7,306 bases of DNA from an uncultured Victivallales bacterium (GTDB lineage: Bacteria > Verrucomicrobiota > Lentisphaeria > Oligosphaerales > JAFGRS01): NCBI GenBank assembly GCA_903834675.1, contig CAILKC010000402.1, positions 1 to 7,306 of the forward strand, in the 5' to 3' direction. The notes below the pieces were generated by a model. That model was not told the DNA's origin and did not search any database. It saw only the letters and a program-made list of their open reading frames with translations. How positions within the stretch are numbered: position 1 is the stretch's first letter; every line of letters starts with the position of its first letter. A program made the translations under genes and the position numbers. Positions 599-7,306 of the stretch are shown piece after piece.

Positions 599-982
599 CT
601 ATCCGCGCTCGCGGAGGATCTTGAACCGGGCAAACTCCAAGACTTCATGGCGGGACTCTGGCGAGAGCTGGTCCAGCAGGATCTGTAGTTGGCGGGCGTT
701 GGACCCATCGTCCCGACGTGCCGTGGAACCGTCACCCGCGGTCTCTCTTTCGTCCAAGACTCCGGCTTCGGCCGCCAGTGTCAGCAGCGCCCGCTTCGCG
801 TAGAGGCCGGGACTACGGCGGTGGTGTAGCCAGGCGGAGACCGTCTGGCGCGCCACCCTGCAGCGGGTGGCGATGTCGAGCTGACTCAGGTACATGCGCT
901 TCTGGATGCGCTGCACCAGAGCCGCCCAGTCGGCCTCCCGCCTCGCGTCGGCCCCGTGTCCTTGGCGGGTGTCGGACCCCAT
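599..982 (-). CDS. XRE/Cro-CI-type helix-turn-helix regulator
   Basis: Small DNA-binding protein, 127 aa from ATG 982. The helix-turn-helix is visible at about residues 24-50: LSQLDIATRC is the first helix, VARQTVSAWLHHR the recognition helix, followed by a helix reading LYAKRALLTLAAEAG. This is the Cro/CI (XRE) arrangement. The C-terminus, LLDQLSPESRHEVLEFARF, forms an amphipathic helix of a kind common at the ends of small regulators and antitoxins and may dimerise. ATG 982 is chosen because GGGAG lies 9 nt upstream. Alternatives in frame are ATG 1075 and GTG 1081 (158 and 160 aa); they add a hydrophilic, probably disordered segment and have only a weak upstream site. The gene is divergent from the dynamin cluster, and the operator-like array at 1077-1128 lies at its 5' side, so self-repression and control of the cluster are inferred. 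No toxin-like partner is visible beside it. Confidence 0.8.
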   Translation of the reverse strand: MGSDTRQGHGADARREADWAALVQRIQKRMYLSQLDIATRCRVARQTVSAWLHHRRSPGLYAKRALLTLAAEAGVLDERETAGDGSTARRDDGSNARQLQILLDQLSPESRHEVLEFARFKILRERG

Positions 983-1074
983 GAACGCATGCTCCCGGTC
1001 TGTCGGCAGGCTGCTCCGCTCGATCTGGGTTGGGGAAGGAGCATCACCCGATTCGACATTCGCCCCCGCATCCA

Positions 1075-1103
1075 TTGACACAACTCGCTGTGTCTCGTAT
1101 GTT
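1075..1103 (+). promoter_or_regulatory. Candidate sigma70-like promoter facing the dynamin cluster
   Basis: A perfect -35 hexamer TTGACA (1075-1080) is followed after 17 bases by TATGTT (1098-1103), which matches four of six bases of TATAAT including the key TA-T positions. Transcription would start near 1110 and run right, towards the 115-aa gene and the GTPase. It is the best promoter match I noticed in the gene-free region; nothing comparable was seen just upstream of the GTPase itself. The hexamers are interleaved with the GTGTC/GACAC half-sites, as expected for a repressed promoter. Confidence 0.55.
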
Positions 1104-1777: not shown

Positions 1778-4228
1778 ATGGATGATCCTGCGGTGACGAC
1801 CGGCAAATCCCCTGACCTGCGGTTGCCGCCCTCGGCGGCCGGTGCTGTTAAGATTCAGCTCATTAGGGAGGTTCAGAAGGAACTGCTCTCGCAGATTTCC
1901 GCCTTTGGCAGCGCCATCGGCAAGCTGCAGGAAGTGAGCGGTGGGGAACAGAAAGAGAGACTTGGTAAACTCGCGATGGCAGCGGAGGATGAGCGCCTGA
2001 AAGTCGGCGAACTGCGTATGGTCTTGGCGTTCGTCGGTGTCATGAAGGCCGGCAAGTCCACGACCATCAACGCCATCGTGGGCGCCGAAGTGCTTCCAAA
2101 CCGCACTGGAGCCATGACCACATTGCCGACTCTCGTCACCCACACAGAGGGGCAACGTGATCCTGTCCTACGATTCACCAAACCCAAGCCGTTCAACCAG
2201 GCGATCGAAAAGATCCGCAAGGCGCTGCACGAGGATGGCGCCATGGAGCGCCTGGCGGATTCTGTGTCCGAAAAGGCCGCCCGCCGCCTTCATGAAGGGC
2301 GCCTAACGGCCGTAGAGGCCAAGTACGAGGGTGCCGCCAAGATCTGCGAGTTCATGGAGTACATCAACGACATCGTACGCATCTGCCGGGATCTGGAGCT
2401 TGAAAACCCGCTTGATGCCTGCAGCAGTATCGCCGACTTCCCTGAGATCGAGGTCGAGTTTGCCTACCTGAAAGACCGCGTCAGGGGCGGGATTGGACGC
2501 CTTTCGCTGCTCGACACACCAGGCCCGAACGAGGCCAGCCAAACGGCCTGTATTAAGGGGGTCGTCAAAGAGCAACTTGCCAAGGCTTCGGCTCTCGTCT
2601 GTGTCGTTGACCCTTTCCAAGCCGAGAGCGAAGCACAGGAGGAGCTACGTGGCTGGATCCGAGAGGCGCAGGAGAATGAAGGAGGGGTGCCCCTGTTTGT
2701 GCTGGTCAATAAGCTCGACCAGCTTCAGAGCAAGGATCGGAGCCATGAGTTCTTTGTGAGCAAGGCACGGCGGATCTTCCCAGACTACGAGACTGATACA
2801 GGGCGAAGACATACTGTTGGGGGCCGAGCATTCGGTATCGCCGCGGCCGATGCATACCTCAGTAACCGTGTCTCGCGTGCGCTGGCGACGCATGGCGGGT
2901 TGCCCGTCGGCGAGGACTGGGTTCAAGACTTCCTCAATGCGGCATACGGGTGTGACGCCTCTGAGGCCGTCAGCAGATCCGCTGAGGAGCTCGGGAAGCG
3001 CAGTGCATCTCTGTGGGAGCGCTCGCGCATGGCCGAGCCGATGGAGTCCGTCGTTGCCCATTCCGTGAGGCGCGCCGCGCCGCTCTGCCTCGGGCAAGCC
3101 ACAAAGAACATATTCTTCCAGGTGGGTAAGTTGAGTAACATGGCGAGGATCCCACTCAAGGCCATGGAACTCGAGCTTGCTAATATAGAGAGCGTACTCG
3201 CGGAACTTGACAAGGGTCTCCAGGACCTGGACAAAGCCAGGACGCATGTCGATAAACGTAGGGAAGAAACAGTTCGTGAAGTCCAGTGGAAGCTCGAAGC
3301 CTGCCTCGATGAATTGACGAAGACGGCCGGGGCGACCCTGGAGAATATCGCATCGAAGGAGCAGAAGACGCAGCTAGACAGAATGGAAAAGGACGGCAGA
3401 AAGGAGGAAGGTGAACGCTTGGGCAGGGTCTACGGGCCATTGGCTTCATTTGCGTGGTTCCTCGCGCGGCCGCCCAAGGAGGGAGATGGCCAAAGCAATA
3501 TCGTGAAGTTGCTCAGCAGCAAAGACCCCATCGAGTTCCCTTCCGAAGAGGTGGCCGTGACGTTCCTGAAGACGACGCGCGAAGCTATTGAAAAGGCGAT
3601 TACGGAGGAGATTACCGGTACGCTGGCGGGTATGAAGACGGCGGTGTCTGGTGCTCAGGCTGCGCTGAAGATGGCAGTTGAGGGCACCGTTGCCCCCGCT
3701 GTGGAGAGCATGCAAAGGTGCCTAAAGAAGCAGTTCGATATTAACGTCAGCGTTCCTGAGCTTATGCTCCCGCGGATAACTATGGATATCGACCTGGCCA
3801 AGTGCGGGACGGTGAGTGCCAAGACCACGACCAGTTCCTATCACGAGAGGCGATGGTACTCTCTATGGCTGTGGAAGCACGAGGAGACGTATCACACCAC
3901 GAAATACAGCATCGATCCGGAGAAGGTCCAGGAAGACATCGTCCGGGTGATCGAAGAGCGTGTTGACGCCGCGGGGAAACTAGTCCATGCTTACCTTGAC
4001 GGCGAGCTCCGCAAGAGCATCGACTCTTTTTTCGGTGATATCCACGGCGTCTTCGACAACATCAGGGGCGCCGTGGTGGATGCAAGACGTATCCGCAACG
4101 AGAGTCGCGAGAAACAGGAAGCCGCGAAGGTCGCCCTAACTGCCATATGCGCGGACGTCGATCGCCTGGTGAAACGTGCGGAAGAGCAGCGCCGACGAAC
4201 TGAGAACGACGACTGGCCGGATCGGTGA
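1778..4228 (+). CDS. Dynamin-like GTPase (CrfC/YjdA-type bacterial dynamin)
   Basis: Large GTPase, 816 aa, with the full set of nucleotide-binding motifs: G1 GVMKAGKST (residues 87-95), a Thr-rich switch I segment TTLPTLVTH (114-122), G3 DTPG (246-249) and G4 NKLD (311-314). The insert between G2 and G3 is long (about 125 residues), as in bacterial dynamin-like proteins. After the G domain (about 75-370) the protein is helical: a long charged coiled-coil stretch at about 455-540, helices at 590-660, an aromatic patch RRWYSLWLWKHEETY (691-705), and a last coiled coil at about 755-810. There is no transmembrane helix, so it is likely cytosolic and peripheral to membranes. Length and the block VLPNRTGAMTTLPT resemble E. 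coli CrfC/YjdA (742 aa), a dynamin-like protein reported to bind the sliding clamp and later described as RdcA, acting with YjcZ/RdcB on a diguanylate cyclase. The start at ATG 1778 has AAGGA seven bases upstream. It is followed after 115 bases, with no terminator, by its probable partner gene. Confidence 0.92.
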   Translation: MDDPAVTTGKSPDLRLPPSAAGAVKIQLIREVQKELLSQISAFGSAIGKLQEVSGGEQKERLGKLAMAAEDERLKVGELRMVLAFVGVMKAGKSTTINAIVGAEVLPNRTGAMTTLPTLVTHTEGQRDPVLRFTKPKPFNQAIEKIRKALHEDGAMERLADSVSEKAARRLHEGRLTAVEAKYEGAAKICEFMEYINDIVRICRDLELENPLDACSSIADFPEIEVEFAYLKDRVRGGIGRLSLLDTPGPNEASQTACIKGVVKEQLAKASALVCVVDPFQAESEAQEELRGWIREAQENEGGVPLFVLVNKLDQLQSKDRSHEFFVSKARRIFPDYETDTGRRHTVGGRAFGIAAADAYLSNRVSRALATHGGLPVGEDWVQDFLNAAYGCDASEAVSRSAEELGKRSASLWERSRMAEPMESVVAHSVRRAAPLCLGQATKNIFFQVGKLSNMARIPLKAMELELANIESVLAELDKGLQDLDKARTHVDKRREETVREVQWKLEACLDELTKTAGATLENIASKEQKTQLDRMEKDGRKEEGERLGRVYGPLASFAWFLARPPKEGDGQSNIVKLLSSKDPIEFPSEEVAVTFLKTTREAIEKAITEEITGTLAGMKTAVSGAQAALKMAVEGTVAPAVESMQRCLKKQFDINVSVPELMLPRITMDIDLAKCGTVSAKTTTSSYHERRWYSLWLWKHEETYHTTKYSIDPEKVQEDIVRVIEERVDAAGKLVHAYLDGELRKSIDSFFGDIHGVFDNIRGAVVDARRIRNESREKQEAAKVALTAICADVDRLVKRAEEQRRRTENDDWPDR

Positions 4229-4343
4229 GTGCTCGTGCGACTGCTGGTCGGGACGGTAGCGACGACGGCACGAACCCTATGGCTCGGGCAGTGGGGCGGC
4301 AGGGGATTCGGGTAAGTGGTGCAGGTGTCAGGAGTGGTGAGCC

Positions 4344-5279
4344 ATGACCGGAAACGCTGTGCAGGTTGTGTTCTGCACCAAGATCCATACCATTCTGCGG
4401 GAACTGGAGAACGTCCCGCACCTGAAGGAGAAGGCTCTGCTCGATCTGGTCAATGGCCTTGAAGTGAGCCGTGACCTGATCACCTACAAGCGCGATCAGG
4501 GGTTGTGGTCACGCATGATCGGTGCTTTGGACGGTTCAAATCGCCGTCGTGAGATCATCATCCAAGAGCAAACACAGGGCTCCCTCGAGACTTTGACTGA
4601 CTGGATGCTGGAATTGACCCGTGAAGCCAGGTTTTCCCAAGAGGTGCTGACCAAGGTGGCGGACAAGCTGAGGGAGACACGCTGCGATCTGGCTGCGCTC
4701 GGCAAAGCGATCGTCGATAACCGGAGTGCTATAGCGGCGCTGGATAAGCGACTGGCCGAGGTCGGGCGACGCATGGACTGCGAATTGGAGGACGTGCGTT
4801 CACGTGTGGAGCGTGTCGAAGATCACCAGGCCATCCAGTTGGTGACGGAGCGCTGGGAGAGTGGTCGTCTGTTTGCCGGTTATCCTGCGCTTGTTCAGGG
4901 TGCTTTTGCGGTCGACGACATCCTGCGCGGCAGCCTGGGACGCCGGGTACATGCAGACGCCGAATTGCGGGGCTTTCTCCATGACCGGGTGGTCAATATC
5001 CTGCGACGGCAAGAATCTATCGGCCAACGCAATGGTTCGCTGGAGCGGGTATGGCTGCCCACGGTCACCTGTTGCGACCAGGTTAGGCGTGAGGTGGCAG
5101 CGTTCGGCCTGGAAGCCGGTGACATGGCCCCGTTGCATCGCACTCTTGCCGCCGCCGTGTCAACCGGCGAAGCCCCCGACTGGTTGGAGCGAGCGCAGAT
5201 AGGGGATGGCATGCCGGTCTTCTACGACTGCTCGGATCTCGTCGAAGATCTGATGCGCGAAACGTCTTCGATGAACTGA
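4344..5279 (+). CDS. Coiled-coil partner protein, YjcZ/RdcB-like
   Basis: Soluble, mostly helical protein of 311 aa without signal peptide or membrane segment. Residues 12-48 form charged helices. A block at 52-95 (GLWSRMIGALDG, then RRREIIIQEQTQGSLETL and WMLELT) resembles the conserved part of E. coli YjcZ (RdcB, about 292 aa), the product of the gene next to the dynamin-like gene yjdA. Residues 97-168 give a heptad-like coiled coil with hydrophobic spacing (LTKVADKLRETRCDLAALG, LDKRLAEVGRRM, VRSRVERVED). The C-terminal half (170-311) is a separate, probably globular helical region with a TCC pair at 242-244. ATG 4344 has GGAG nine bases upstream. Position directly after the GTPase and 33 bases before the patatin gene supports a partner role linking the two, perhaps by coiled-coil contact; this is inference. 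The RdcB assignment rests on remembered sequence pattern, length and context, and needs a profile search. Confidence 0.8.
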   Translation: MTGNAVQVVFCTKIHTILRELENVPHLKEKALLDLVNGLEVSRDLITYKRDQGLWSRMIGALDGSNRRREIIIQEQTQGSLETLTDWMLELTREARFSQEVLTKVADKLRETRCDLAALGKAIVDNRSAIAALDKRLAEVGRRMDCELEDVRSRVERVEDHQAIQLVTERWESGRLFAGYPALVQGAFAVDDILRGSLGRRVHADAELRGFLHDRVVNILRRQESIGQRNGSLERVWLPTVTCCDQVRREVAAFGLEAGDMAPLHRTLAAAVSTGEAPDWLERAQIGDGMPVFYDCSDLVEDLMRETSSMN

Positions 5280-5312
5280 CAGGCGGAAGGCGAGATAGGA
5301 GTTGTGGGGGGC

Positions 5313-6389
5313 ATGGACACCGCGAGACGCACGAAGCTAGGCCTGGTCCTGTCGGGGGGTGGAGCCAAGGGTGCTTACGAAGTGGGCGTGCTGAAAGCTC
5401 TGGCCCGTTGCGGATGTTGCCCGGAAGTGGTGGCCGGTGCCAGCATCGGCGCGGTTAATGGCGCGGTCGTTGCCTCGTCGCCGGACCTCTTGACTGCGGC
5501 GACCTCGCTGGAGACTCTCTGGAATGGGGTGACGACCGACTCGGTCTTGAAACTGAAACCCGAGACGGCCCCAGCGCATTACCTTGCTCTGGTTGGGCTC
5601 AATCTCCTAGTCCGCACCTACTTCGCGACGCCGATGCTGACTCTCAGTGCCCTGATCTCCAGCATTCCGCAGATCCGCGATCTATTCTCCGACGACGACA
5701 GACGCTACATCAGTATGCTCGACCACAGCCCAATCGAGGCTCTGGTCGAAAAGGCGGTCGACCTAGAGCGGCTGCTCTCTCCCGGAGCACTCGATTTCTA
5801 TGTCTCCGTCTACCCCGCCTCGAAAGCCGGCGGACTTGTGGGGCTTGCCAAGGACGTGGTTCGATATGCAGTAAGCCGAGACAAATCGGAGTTCTTTCGT
5901 CTGAAAGACGTCCCGCGTGACACTGCCGCCAAGTTGATTCTGGCCAGTGCGGCCATCCCCTTTGCGTTCAAGCCGATGGAGTACCAAGGCAGGAGGTTCT
6001 ACGACGGTGGCATGGGGGACCGTGTCAAAGCTCAAGGGAACACACCGGTCGAGCCGCTGGTCAAGGCGGGATGCACACACGCGATTGTTGTTATCATCGG
6101 CAACGGAGTACCGTGGGACCGTTATGAATGGCCGGACCTCACGGTGCTGGAGATCCGGCCCAGCAAGGTGATCGACGGGATGCTTGACTTCGATCCTGCG
6201 CGTATCCGAGCCCTGATCGCCCTGGGCGAACAGGACGCTACACGTTCGCTGGCCCGGTTCGCCAAGGCCTCGGCCGAAGTCCAGGGACTCATGCGGGCGC
6301 ACCAGGGACTGGAGCGAGCCATCGCAGATCTGGAGCGGCGTGACCCCGACTATGACGACATCGTGCGCGCGATCCGGAACGGCGGATGA
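5313..6389 (+). CDS. Patatin-like phospholipase
   Basis: Lipid acyl hydrolase of the patatin family, 358 aa, with a Ser-Asp dyad. Visible motifs are the oxyanion loop GGGAKG (residues 15-20), the nucleophile elbow GASIG (42-46, Ser44), the family block ASAAIPFAFKP (211-221) and the catalytic Asp in DGG (231-233). All key residues are present, so the enzyme should be active on phospholipid or acyl esters. No signal peptide, beta-barrel domain or transmembrane helix is seen, so it should act from the cytosol on the inner leaflet. The insert at about 80-125 (LVGLNLLVRTYF and neighbours) is hydrophobic and may form a lid or membrane contact. ATG 5313 has AGGAG 11 bases upstream; GTG 5304 in the same frame is possible but lies only two bases after that site. 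It is the third gene of the trio. Bacterial patatins serve in lipid turnover, in type-secreted toxins and as CBASS effectors (CapV), but no nucleotide cyclase is present here. Confidence 0.93.
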   Translation: MDTARRTKLGLVLSGGGAKGAYEVGVLKALARCGCCPEVVAGASIGAVNGAVVASSPDLLTAATSLETLWNGVTTDSVLKLKPETAPAHYLALVGLNLLVRTYFATPMLTLSALISSIPQIRDLFSDDDRRYISMLDHSPIEALVEKAVDLERLLSPGALDFYVSVYPASKAGGLVGLAKDVVRYAVSRDKSEFFRLKDVPRDTAAKLILASAAIPFAFKPMEYQGRRFYDGGMGDRVKAQGNTPVEPLVKAGCTHAIVVIIGNGVPWDRYEWPDLTVLEIRPSKVIDGMLDFDPARIRALIALGEQDATRSLARFAKASAEVQGLMRAHQGLERAIADLERRDPDYDDIVRAIRNGG

Positions 6390-7033
6390 GCCTCGGCGGC
6401 GCCTGCGCGTTGCCGATCGATCCGAGTATGGACGGGCAGTTCCAGCTGGTCCTAACCCTTGACCGGCGTGACCGGGGCCGCGTGACCGGATTCGGGATAC
6501 TGACGCTGGCGAATGGGCGTCACATTGCCGTGCAGGCCATGGGTAAGGAAGCTGCAGGCTTGGTGATTCTCCGGGTTGGCGGGGATGGGGCCATGGACCC
6601 GTCATTTGCTGCGGTTAGGCTCCGGCTAACCCTACGGACTCTCGCCGACGGCACGGCCGACGGCGTAGGGCACCGCGGGCCGCATCCGTCCCACGCTTGT
6701 CTCGAGAGGTGCGGCTTGCCGACACCGCTCTGGCGTTCTGGCCTGTTATCTGGGGAAAGACGAGTGGCATGGGAGGGTTGGGACCGGATCACCCATGGCG
6801 ACCGAATCTCATCCTCTATGGAACCTGCTCTCGATGTCGGCGAGGAGGTAGGTACCATCTCTGTCTCTCCCCCCCTCGCCCTTTTTTGTCGCACCTCTGC
6901 AGCAACGGGGGCTGTCCCTGCTGCGGATCATGCACCGTGCTGCGGGGAACCATCCACGCATGATCGTCGGAACGCTCTCCGCTTCCCTGAGGCTGCGCCT
7001 TCCCATCCTGCGTCGGGCGCGACGGACCTATGA
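6386..7033 (+). CDS. Doubtful ORF: real beta-rich N-terminal fragment, degenerate tail
   Basis: The ATG overlaps the patatin stop codon (ATGA), so it is in position to be translated by coupling. Residues 10-95 look like a real beta-rich domain: FQLVLTLDRRDRGRVTGFG, LTLANGRHIAVQAMGKEA, VILRVGG, DPSFAAVRLRLTL and LADGTADG. This strand-turn repeat with GxVTGxGxLxLxNG resembles the repeated C-terminal modules of large secreted proteins from planctomycete-like bacteria (pattern recalled, not searched). After about residue 95 (near 6670) the translation loses any protein-like order, is rich in Cys, Pro, Ser and Arg, runs through the candidate terminator and ends inside the convergent recombinase gene. 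I therefore think only the first 285 or so bases are descended from a gene, and that it is a truncated or captured fragment. Confidence 0.35.
   Translation: MSLGGACALPIDPSMDGQFQLVLTLDRRDRGRVTGFGILTLANGRHIAVQAMGKEAAGLVILRVGGDGAMDPSFAAVRLRLTLRTLADGTADGVGHRGPHPSHACLERCGLPTPLWRSGLLSGERRVAWEGWDRITHGDRISSSMEPALDVGEEVGTISVSPPLALFCRTSAATGAVPAADHAPCCGEPSTHDRRNALRFPEAAPSHPASGATDL
6839..6887 (+). terminator. Candidate rho-independent terminator for the rightward cluster
   Basis: GGCGAGG (6839-6845) pairs perfectly with CCTCGCC (6874-6880), and after one C there is a run of six T (6882-6887). Two further G-C pairs (6847-6848 with 6871-6872) can form after a mismatch. The remaining loop is long, about 22 bases, which weakens the call. 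It lies 450 bases after the patatin stop, between the cluster and the convergent recombinase gene, and is the only stem plus T-run I found on this strand downstream of the trio. Confidence 0.5.
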
Positions 7034-7306
7034 GACCAAGACCCTACGGATCTCGCTGACGCCCTCACTCGCGTCCTTGAGGCCGTCTATGATCGCCAAC
7101 GCCTTCGCGATGCGCTCCCGGTCGGATGTGGCGTTGGTATTGCCGGCGATGGCCATGATCGCCTTCTCTTGGGCATCCTCGCCGATGTGGGTGTAGTGCT
7201 TGGCGACGACCTGCGAGTTGGCGCCGACGATGGAAACGACGACAGCCTCCGGAATCCCGGCCTCGGCACAGTGAGAGACGAAGCTGTGCCGCAGGGAATG
7301 GAAGCC
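7028..7306 (-). CDS. Tyrosine recombinase/integrase, C-terminal part (runs off the window)
   Basis: A minus-strand frame open to the window edge encodes the last 92 residues of a phage-integrase-family recombinase and ends at a TAG (7030-7028). The catalytic HxxR is HSLR in HSLRHSF (residues 3-6 from the edge) and the nucleophile is Tyr38 in KHYTHIG. Between them, where most family members have LGH or VGH, this protein reads VGAN, so the usual His/Trp of the active site appears to be replaced. The tail after the Tyr is long (about 54 residues) and helical, with IAKALAIIDGL. The N-terminal core-binding and first catalytic Arg lie outside the window. The gene converges on the dynamin-patatin cluster. 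It may be the integrase of the island carrying the cluster or of a neighbouring element; its attachment site is not identifiable here. Confidence 0.85.
   Translation of the reverse strand, partial: GFHSLRHSFVSHCAEAGIPEAVVVSIVGANSQVVAKHYTHIGEDAQEKAIMAIAGNTNATSDRERIAKALAIIDGLKDASEGVSEIRRVLVS

Follow-up and report, generated by a model that had tools for sequence, protein, structure and literature searches.

Background

The dynamin-like GTPase RdcA of Escherichia coli K-12 (also CrfC or YjdA) has been assigned two unrelated roles, the binding of the replication clamp and the control of cyclic di-GMP. According to work on the second role, RdcA binds its partner RdcB (YjcZ) and the MASE1 domain of the diguanylate cyclase DgcE, the known client of the pair (PMC6510439). 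In the same source, the G2 mutant T103D of RdcA loses the binding of DgcE and the K82A mutant is still functional; the authors suggest that RdcA has no activity when bound to GTP and that it may gather two DgcE molecules. Here we describe a locus in which homologues of RdcA and RdcB are followed by the gene of a patatin-like phospholipase. It lies on a stretch of 7,306 nucleotides from an uncultured Victivallales bacterium (contig CAILKC010000402.1), which is referred to as the window. With moderate confidence, we read this trio as an operon-like module for stress that moves between genomes, in all likelihood an anti-phage system of the abortive-infection type, whose GTPase and partner gate the phospholipase at the membrane.

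The trio resembles the K-12 pair in that GTPase and partner are homologous and follow each other in the same order, with the lysine of G1 and the threonine of G2 aligned (K93 and T114 in the window, K82 and T103 in RdcA). K-12 RdcA and RdcB score 678 and 131 bits, respectively, against profiles of the trio proteins, and the window partner is matched by the YjcZ profile PF13990 at 37.4 bits, above the gathering cut-off of 27. The link to CrfC/YjdA and YjcZ that a preliminary description had proposed from the DNA letters is thus upheld. The two loci differ in what comes next: in K-12, where rdcA and rdcB share 4 bases, the gene after them is proP and not a patatin gene. Moreover, rdcAB is near-universal in E. 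coli (5354 of 5426 complete genomes) and is not mobile.

The trio as a conserved module

Loci were collected by scanning genome contigs with an alignment of the patatin; the best 80 of 531 confirmed relatives were retained, and their open reading frames (ORFs) were then searched with profile hidden Markov models. GTPase, partner and patatin stand in the same order and on one strand in 33 of the 80 loci, and none of these 33 is out of order. They are found in Pseudomonadota (21), Cyanobacteriota (4), Bacillota (4), Campylobacterota (2), Fidelibacterota (1) and Altimarinota (1). The identical order and strand rule out chance neighbours, and the trio is a real module; the possibility, raised at the outset, that the three genes might not be found together in unrelated genomes is answered by these six phyla. 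Four loci (L007, L008, L044 and L048) have partner and patatin without a match to the GTPase profile, and 43 patatin loci have neither a partner nor, by the profile used, a GTPase. In the subfamily of the window, 9 of the first 21 GTPase matches appear, when read by eye, to be paired with a listed patatin.

The junction of GTPase and partner overlaps in 22 of 32 loci (17 by exactly 4 bases) and that of partner and patatin in 26 of 32 (11 by exactly 4 bases), with the reservation that starts were placed mechanically at the first start codon and long overlaps may reflect wrong starts. In the window, the gaps of 115 and 33 bases announced in the preliminary description are confirmed, the latter for a patatin that starts at ATG 5313 (24 bases if it starts at GTG 5304); the start at 5313 is probably the right one, because it fits better the N-termini of the relatives.

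The pairwise divergences of the three proteins correlate (r of 0.87, 0.81 and 0.86; none of 2000 permutations is as high), a result which is also expected from shared vertical descent alone. It was obtained with 33 triples: 28 of the 33 complete trio loci, L103, L105, L110, L111 and the window. L005, L015, L022, L024 and L041 were omitted as cut or split, and L102 as its partner reads as two ORFs.

The active sites are intact in the window, as first described: the GTPase has G1 (GVMKAGKS from residue 87, of which K93 is part), G3 (DTPG, 246) and G4 (NKLD, 311), and the patatin, numbered from ATG 5313, has GGGAKG, Ser44 in GASIG and Asp231 in DGG. K93, D246, N311 and D314 are invariant across 41 aligned GTPases, and the catalytic Ser and Asp are invariant across 33 aligned patatins. 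The Pfam scores are 47.8 bits for Dynamin_N (cut-off 27) and 91.5 bits for Patatin PF01734 (cut-off 27.7). On the basis of the G1, G3 and G4 motifs and of the Dynamin_N score, the GTPase is assigned to the dynamin superfamily. The NCBIfam model CrfC (NF007368) matches it over residues 70-779 with 266.4 bits; as this is far under the equivalog cut-off of 1146, the protein is classed as a homologue of CrfC/RdcA rather than as CrfC/RdcA itself.

The AlphaFold2 model of the GTPase (predicted local distance difference test, pLDDT, 82.1) has a G domain at about residues 80-400, together with the helical bundle and the stalk that characterize the superfamily; among its structural matches are BDLP, SynDLP, IniA and mitofusin, and also the LeoA structure 4aur. 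A beta-hairpin (RWYSLWLWKH..., from residue 692) stands between two long helices of the stalk, and its aromatic residues suggest membrane binding. The model of the partner (pLDDT 82.6) has a long helix (65-172) and a C-terminal helical domain, and finds no match in the PDB at E <= 0.001, which does not by itself establish a new fold.

Some loci depart from the common arrangement. In Acinetobacter chengduensis (L037:2915-7027), two tandem GTPases precede partner and patatin behind a WYL regulator. In Actinomadura (L044:3945-9083), the place of the dynamin before the patatin is taken by an ATPase of the Hsp70 type (25.7 bits), an ORF with a coiled coil and a weak match to the partner (28 bits). 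In Streptomyces (L048:6699-11342), a weak partner match and the patatin are followed downstream by a different dynamin-like GTPase (Dynamin_N 72.3 bits). Last, seven Synergistaceae loci (L021, L029, L032, L034, L035, L036 and L039) have stand-alone patatins, which form one group inside the trio patatins and lie among metabolic genes.

Distribution and mobility

The trio is accessory and not a housekeeping set. With the whole trio as query (4.35 kb, at least 80% coverage), it is found in 2426 of the 5426 E. coli genomes, at 3384 chromosomal places and one plasmid place; the patatin alone as query gives 2482 genomes and the GTPase alone 2416, E. coli Nissle 1917 being one of those with the GTPase. 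Of 199 Pseudomonas genomes, 3 (the seed is one of them) have a patatin of the trio kind (E <= 1e-50); the two others contain all three genes, the partner ORF being split in one of them. The GTPase (E <= 1e-40, two candidates scored per genome) is present in 6 of 398 Pseudomonadota genomes, seed included. This sporadic occurrence in Pseudomonas, Pseudomonadota and E. coli rules out a housekeeping operon; the fear that the cluster could be stable gene order of one lineage is likewise not borne out by its accessory status in Pseudomonas, on plasmids and in the E. coli counts. In the patatin tree, the Bacillota row L024 falls inside a Burkholderiales clade (support 94), a sign of transfer between phyla.

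The E. coli loci that were opened (L107, L108 and L110-L112) lie in CP4-44-like islands with DUF932 or DUF945, antirestriction, RadC/JAB, YeeU/CbeA, CbtA and toxin genes. Two of three chromosomal islands end at yeeA/sbmC and one at tRNA-Ser and ghrA; K-12 MG1655 has flu-yeeR-yeeS-cbeA-cbtA at the corresponding CP4-44 site. The alleles are mosaic. Between L110 (14001-18354) and L111 or L112, partner and patatin are 94-100% identical, and the identity of the GTPase drops to 76-78% over one stretch of 200 bases and to 86-92% over others; the pair L110 and L107 shows no difference in the GTPase and an identity of 90-95% in the patatin. Such an exchange of pieces would fit diversifying pressure or frequent recombination. 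A separate observation concerns E. coli ATCC 25922, for which the tables of PMC7696260 list mutations in genes named crfC, rssA, yeeP and yjcZ, with more than 100 changes in 'crfC' and many in 'rssA' and 'yeeP' (PMC7696260). It may be, and this is a guess, that these entries are the island trio, mislabelled or cross-mapped.

On plasmids, the patatin is found in 35 of 72,556 records (Klebsiella 19, Enterobacter 8, Escherichia 6, Aliarcobacter 2); an RdcB-family gene is named under the match in 18 of the 35 rows, and six regions were opened. A Klebsiella plasmid has an intact partner and patatin beside a truncated GTPase (340 amino acids). An Aliarcobacter plasmid (L109:4823-14561) has partner and patatin, a 15-bit trace of a GTPase, a Shedu gene nearby and two integrases.

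Residence on plasmids and islands, beside toxin-antitoxin genes, is what one would expect if the trio served mobile elements as an addiction or toxin-antitoxin-like module, with the patatin as a toxin checked by GTPase and partner. We judge this improbable, as the Klebsiella and Aliarcobacter plasmids keep partner and patatin; since they lack an intact GTPase, such a GTPase is seemingly not needed to survive the lipase. The same two cases, where the GTPase beside the lipase is truncated or nearly absent, weakly favor activation of the lipase over restraint.

Neighbouring genes

Several defence systems are under the control of WYL regulators. From 39 trio loci, the two nearest genes on either flank were taken, which gives 128 neighbouring proteins; in these, Pfam identifies WYL (9), phage integrase (3), type I methylase (2), specificity domains (2) and type III restriction subunits (2). 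Single scans of 10 chosen neighbours confirm WYL in seven and ZorE in one (beside L038), and give no match in two. A WYL profile built from those seven proteins, which are 7 of the 12 regulators that it finds, detects the regulator in 12 trio loci and nowhere else among the loci. In five of the 12 it lies less than 100 bases upstream of the first GTPase, on the same strand.

As a control, we used 119 of the 154 proteins that neighbour non-trio patatin loci (34 of 43 loci), trimmed by hand for near-repeats and size. With PADLOC at 1e-10, 162 models are matched by trio neighbours (WYL in 10 proteins, type I methylases, specificity subunits, AbiLi in 2, mad2 in 2) and 5 by control neighbours (mad2 in 3 proteins, WYL in none), a contrast which is not a fold-enrichment, as one restriction gene meets many models and the figure of 162 overstates the gap. 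The trio is located on mobile elements and, when compared with this imperfect control, among defence genes, and the enrichment that the preliminary description had suggested looking for is seen as WYL, restriction-modification and ZorE genes beside the trio. We infer a defence role from this context.

Several observations weigh against this reading, in addition to the inflated PADLOC count mentioned above. Most of the control neighbours belong to other phyla (Bacillota, Mycoplasmatota, Synergistota), mad2 is matched in both sets, and the E. coli islands that bear the trio also hold non-defence genes (adhesins, toxin-antitoxin). In the five non-seed Pseudomonadota with the GTPase, GTPase and partner have no patatin within 18-19 kb, so that the patatin-less pair is the commoner form in that sample when one samples by GTPase. 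Close to the window itself, the closest GTPase (P0125) and the closest partner (P0002) seem to be paired together without a listed patatin, and the nearest rows of the patatin tree, among those fetched, are the stand-alone patatins L002 and L003 (of the non-trio rows of the 80 loci that are numbered above L042, that tree keeps 13 and omits 22). Finally, none of 50,697 phage records contains a relative of the patatin (1e-15), and two scans of viral contigs gave pattern matches of which none was confirmed as a relative, the confirmation relying on the window protein and being of limited reach. A phage-borne module is dismissed on these grounds.

The trio may instead be a module of membrane repair or lipid remodelling under stress, without any immune role, whose dynamin fuses or seals damaged membrane and whose patatin trims or recycles lipids. 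The TerB domain, known from Ter stress systems, could point in that direction: it is found (PF05099) at the N-terminus of eight relatives of the window GTPase (P0126, P0127, P0130, P0132, P0134, P0135, P0137 and P0139), the window protein itself being devoid of it. Some neighbours of the trio are ordinary metabolic genes, and bacterial dynamins act in membrane surveillance (PMC8844932). Still, we regard a pure repair function as unlikely, in that the patchy distribution, the plasmids and islands, and the WYL and restriction neighbours fit accessory defence better.

Relationship of the trio to RdcAB

In a tree of 49 GTPases rooted at its midpoint, the six patatin-less rows (K-12 RdcA and L097-L101) form one group (support 100), which adjoins the GTPases of enterobacterial islands and plasmids (90) and lies inside the trio rows; the patatin status is assigned for all rows of this tree but P0164, P0171, P0190 and P0216. 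A tree of 42 rows with a distant outgroup, from which the long-branch rows L010 and L042 were dropped along with several more, gives the same placement (95); its outgroup is the L048 dynamin, with a branch length of 10, so that the rooting is weak. Aligned with the trio GTPases, RdcA is missing about 50 residues of the stalk loop and part of the aromatic residues of the hairpin. RdcAB thus looks like a derivative of the trio that lost the phospholipase, the simplest reading being a single loss within the Enterobacterales. If the root lay on the RdcA branch, which the trees alone allow, the direction would be the opposite. The apparent descent of RdcAB from a trio of this kind had escaped the preliminary description, as had the frequency of the trio in E. 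coli islands.

The homologues RdcA and RdcB have a regulatory role, and it could be argued that the trio is likewise a regulator of second messengers or biofilms, its patatin being a passenger or an enzyme of lipid signalling. We find this highly improbable: the dyad is conserved in 33 of 33 aligned patatins, the patatin-less GTPases are one derived clade, and the bearers of the trio span phyla which, presumably, need not have clients of the DgcE type.

Proposed mechanism

The starting point is the conservation of the three proteins and of their active sites, and we infer the further steps largely by analogy with RdcAB and DgcE. The GTPase would bind its partner in a complex, like RdcA with RdcB, and the GTPase would assemble on disturbed membrane via the hairpin at the tip of its stalk. 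The patatin would be their client, in the place that DgcE has for RdcAB, and would be held or recruited by them. A change of state linked to GTP hydrolysis may then release or cluster the patatin at the membrane, where the active enzyme would cut phospholipids, with the result that the cell is stopped or the site of infection damaged. K-12 RdcAB would be a descendant without patatin, which now activates DgcE.

More tentatively, and with less than even confidence, we propose that the dynamins of the trio are immune proteins that come with a phospholipase of their own. They would belong to a defence system that is widespread but undescribed and that about 45% of complete E. coli genomes possess; its GTPase and RdcB-type partner would sense the injury of the membrane by phage and unleash the patatin. 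RdcAB would then be a domesticated copy, deprived of the killer enzyme and rewired to a diguanylate cyclase.

If the mobile stress module that we favor is real, nearly half of complete E. coli genomes carry an unrecognized system of defence or membrane stress, in which a phospholipase is joined to a machine of the dynamin type and whose outline recalls the dynamin-family immune GTPases of animals. The origin of RdcAB would be that of a regulator derived from an effector-bearing module, which is testable in K-12.

Features of the window

Features assigned in the window, with the basis of each assignment
Feature	Position	Strand	Basis
Dynamin-superfamily GTPase, RdcA/CrfC-like, 816 amino acids	1778..4228	+	Pfam Dynamin_N; AlphaFold2; motifs
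YjcZ/RdcB-family partner, 311 amino acids, all-helical	4344..5279	+	PF13990; AlphaFold2
Patatin-like phospholipase, 358 amino acids from ATG 5313 (361 from GTG 5304)	5313..6389	+	PF01734; alignments
Tyrosine integrase, C-terminal piece cut by the window edge	7031..7306	-	Phage_integrase profile; translation
Helix-turn-helix (HTH) regulator-like ORF, divergent from and upstream of the trio	602-1081	-	Weak profile matches

The integrase piece matches positions 129-168 of the 172 of the Phage_integrase profile (24.3 bits, E 2.9e-5, below the cut-off of 27.1); it converges on the trio and is a mobile-element context outside it. The weak matches of the regulator-like ORF are HTH_23 (18.4 bits), mad1 (16.7 bits) and NadS (16.9 bits). 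The ORFs at 6386-7033 and 15-509 have no Pfam match and are taken as spurious or unknown. A truncated TerB domain upstream of the GTPase was considered and rejected: the ORF in the same frame (1346-1693), judged by eye, is unlike the N-terminus of P0125.

Comparison with other known systems

The three window proteins have no strong match in PADLOC, and an identity with CBASS (cyclic oligonucleotide-based anti-phage signalling system) or another PADLOC system is rejected. So are the identities of the patatin with RssA (36.9 bits, cut-off 272) and with the Dot/Icm effector VpdC (29.5 bits, cut-off 1000). Dynamins are mentioned as predicted defence genes in PMC12595487 and PMC10855318; the main text of PMC10121019 names neither dynamin nor patatin nor CP4. 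We could not find a trio of a dynamin or YjcZ/RdcB with a patatin described in open-licence papers, preprints and most subscription papers being outside the scope of the search.

CBASS with CapV shares with the trio a patatin phospholipase as effector. It differs from the window, whose patatin scores 19.4 bits against a CBASS_lipase cut-off of 200 and is partnered with a GTPase pair, and no member of the CD-NTase family is found among the window ORFs scanned with Pfam. The dynamins of LeoABC are listed as an anti-phage system (Eleos), and LeoABC has in common with the window the bacterial dynamin fold and a paired gene. Here, however, the PADLOC model LeoA gives 14.1 bits, the neighbours are YjcZ and a patatin, and the window has no second dynamin like LeoB or LeoC. 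DynA of Bacillus subtilis is, like the trio GTPase, dynamin-like, and it is active against phage (PMC8844932); unlike the trio it is a single protein that delays lysis, with neither partner nor lipase. Dynamin defence, patatin effectors and RdcAB are thus known kinds, and what appears to be new in the trio is their combination.

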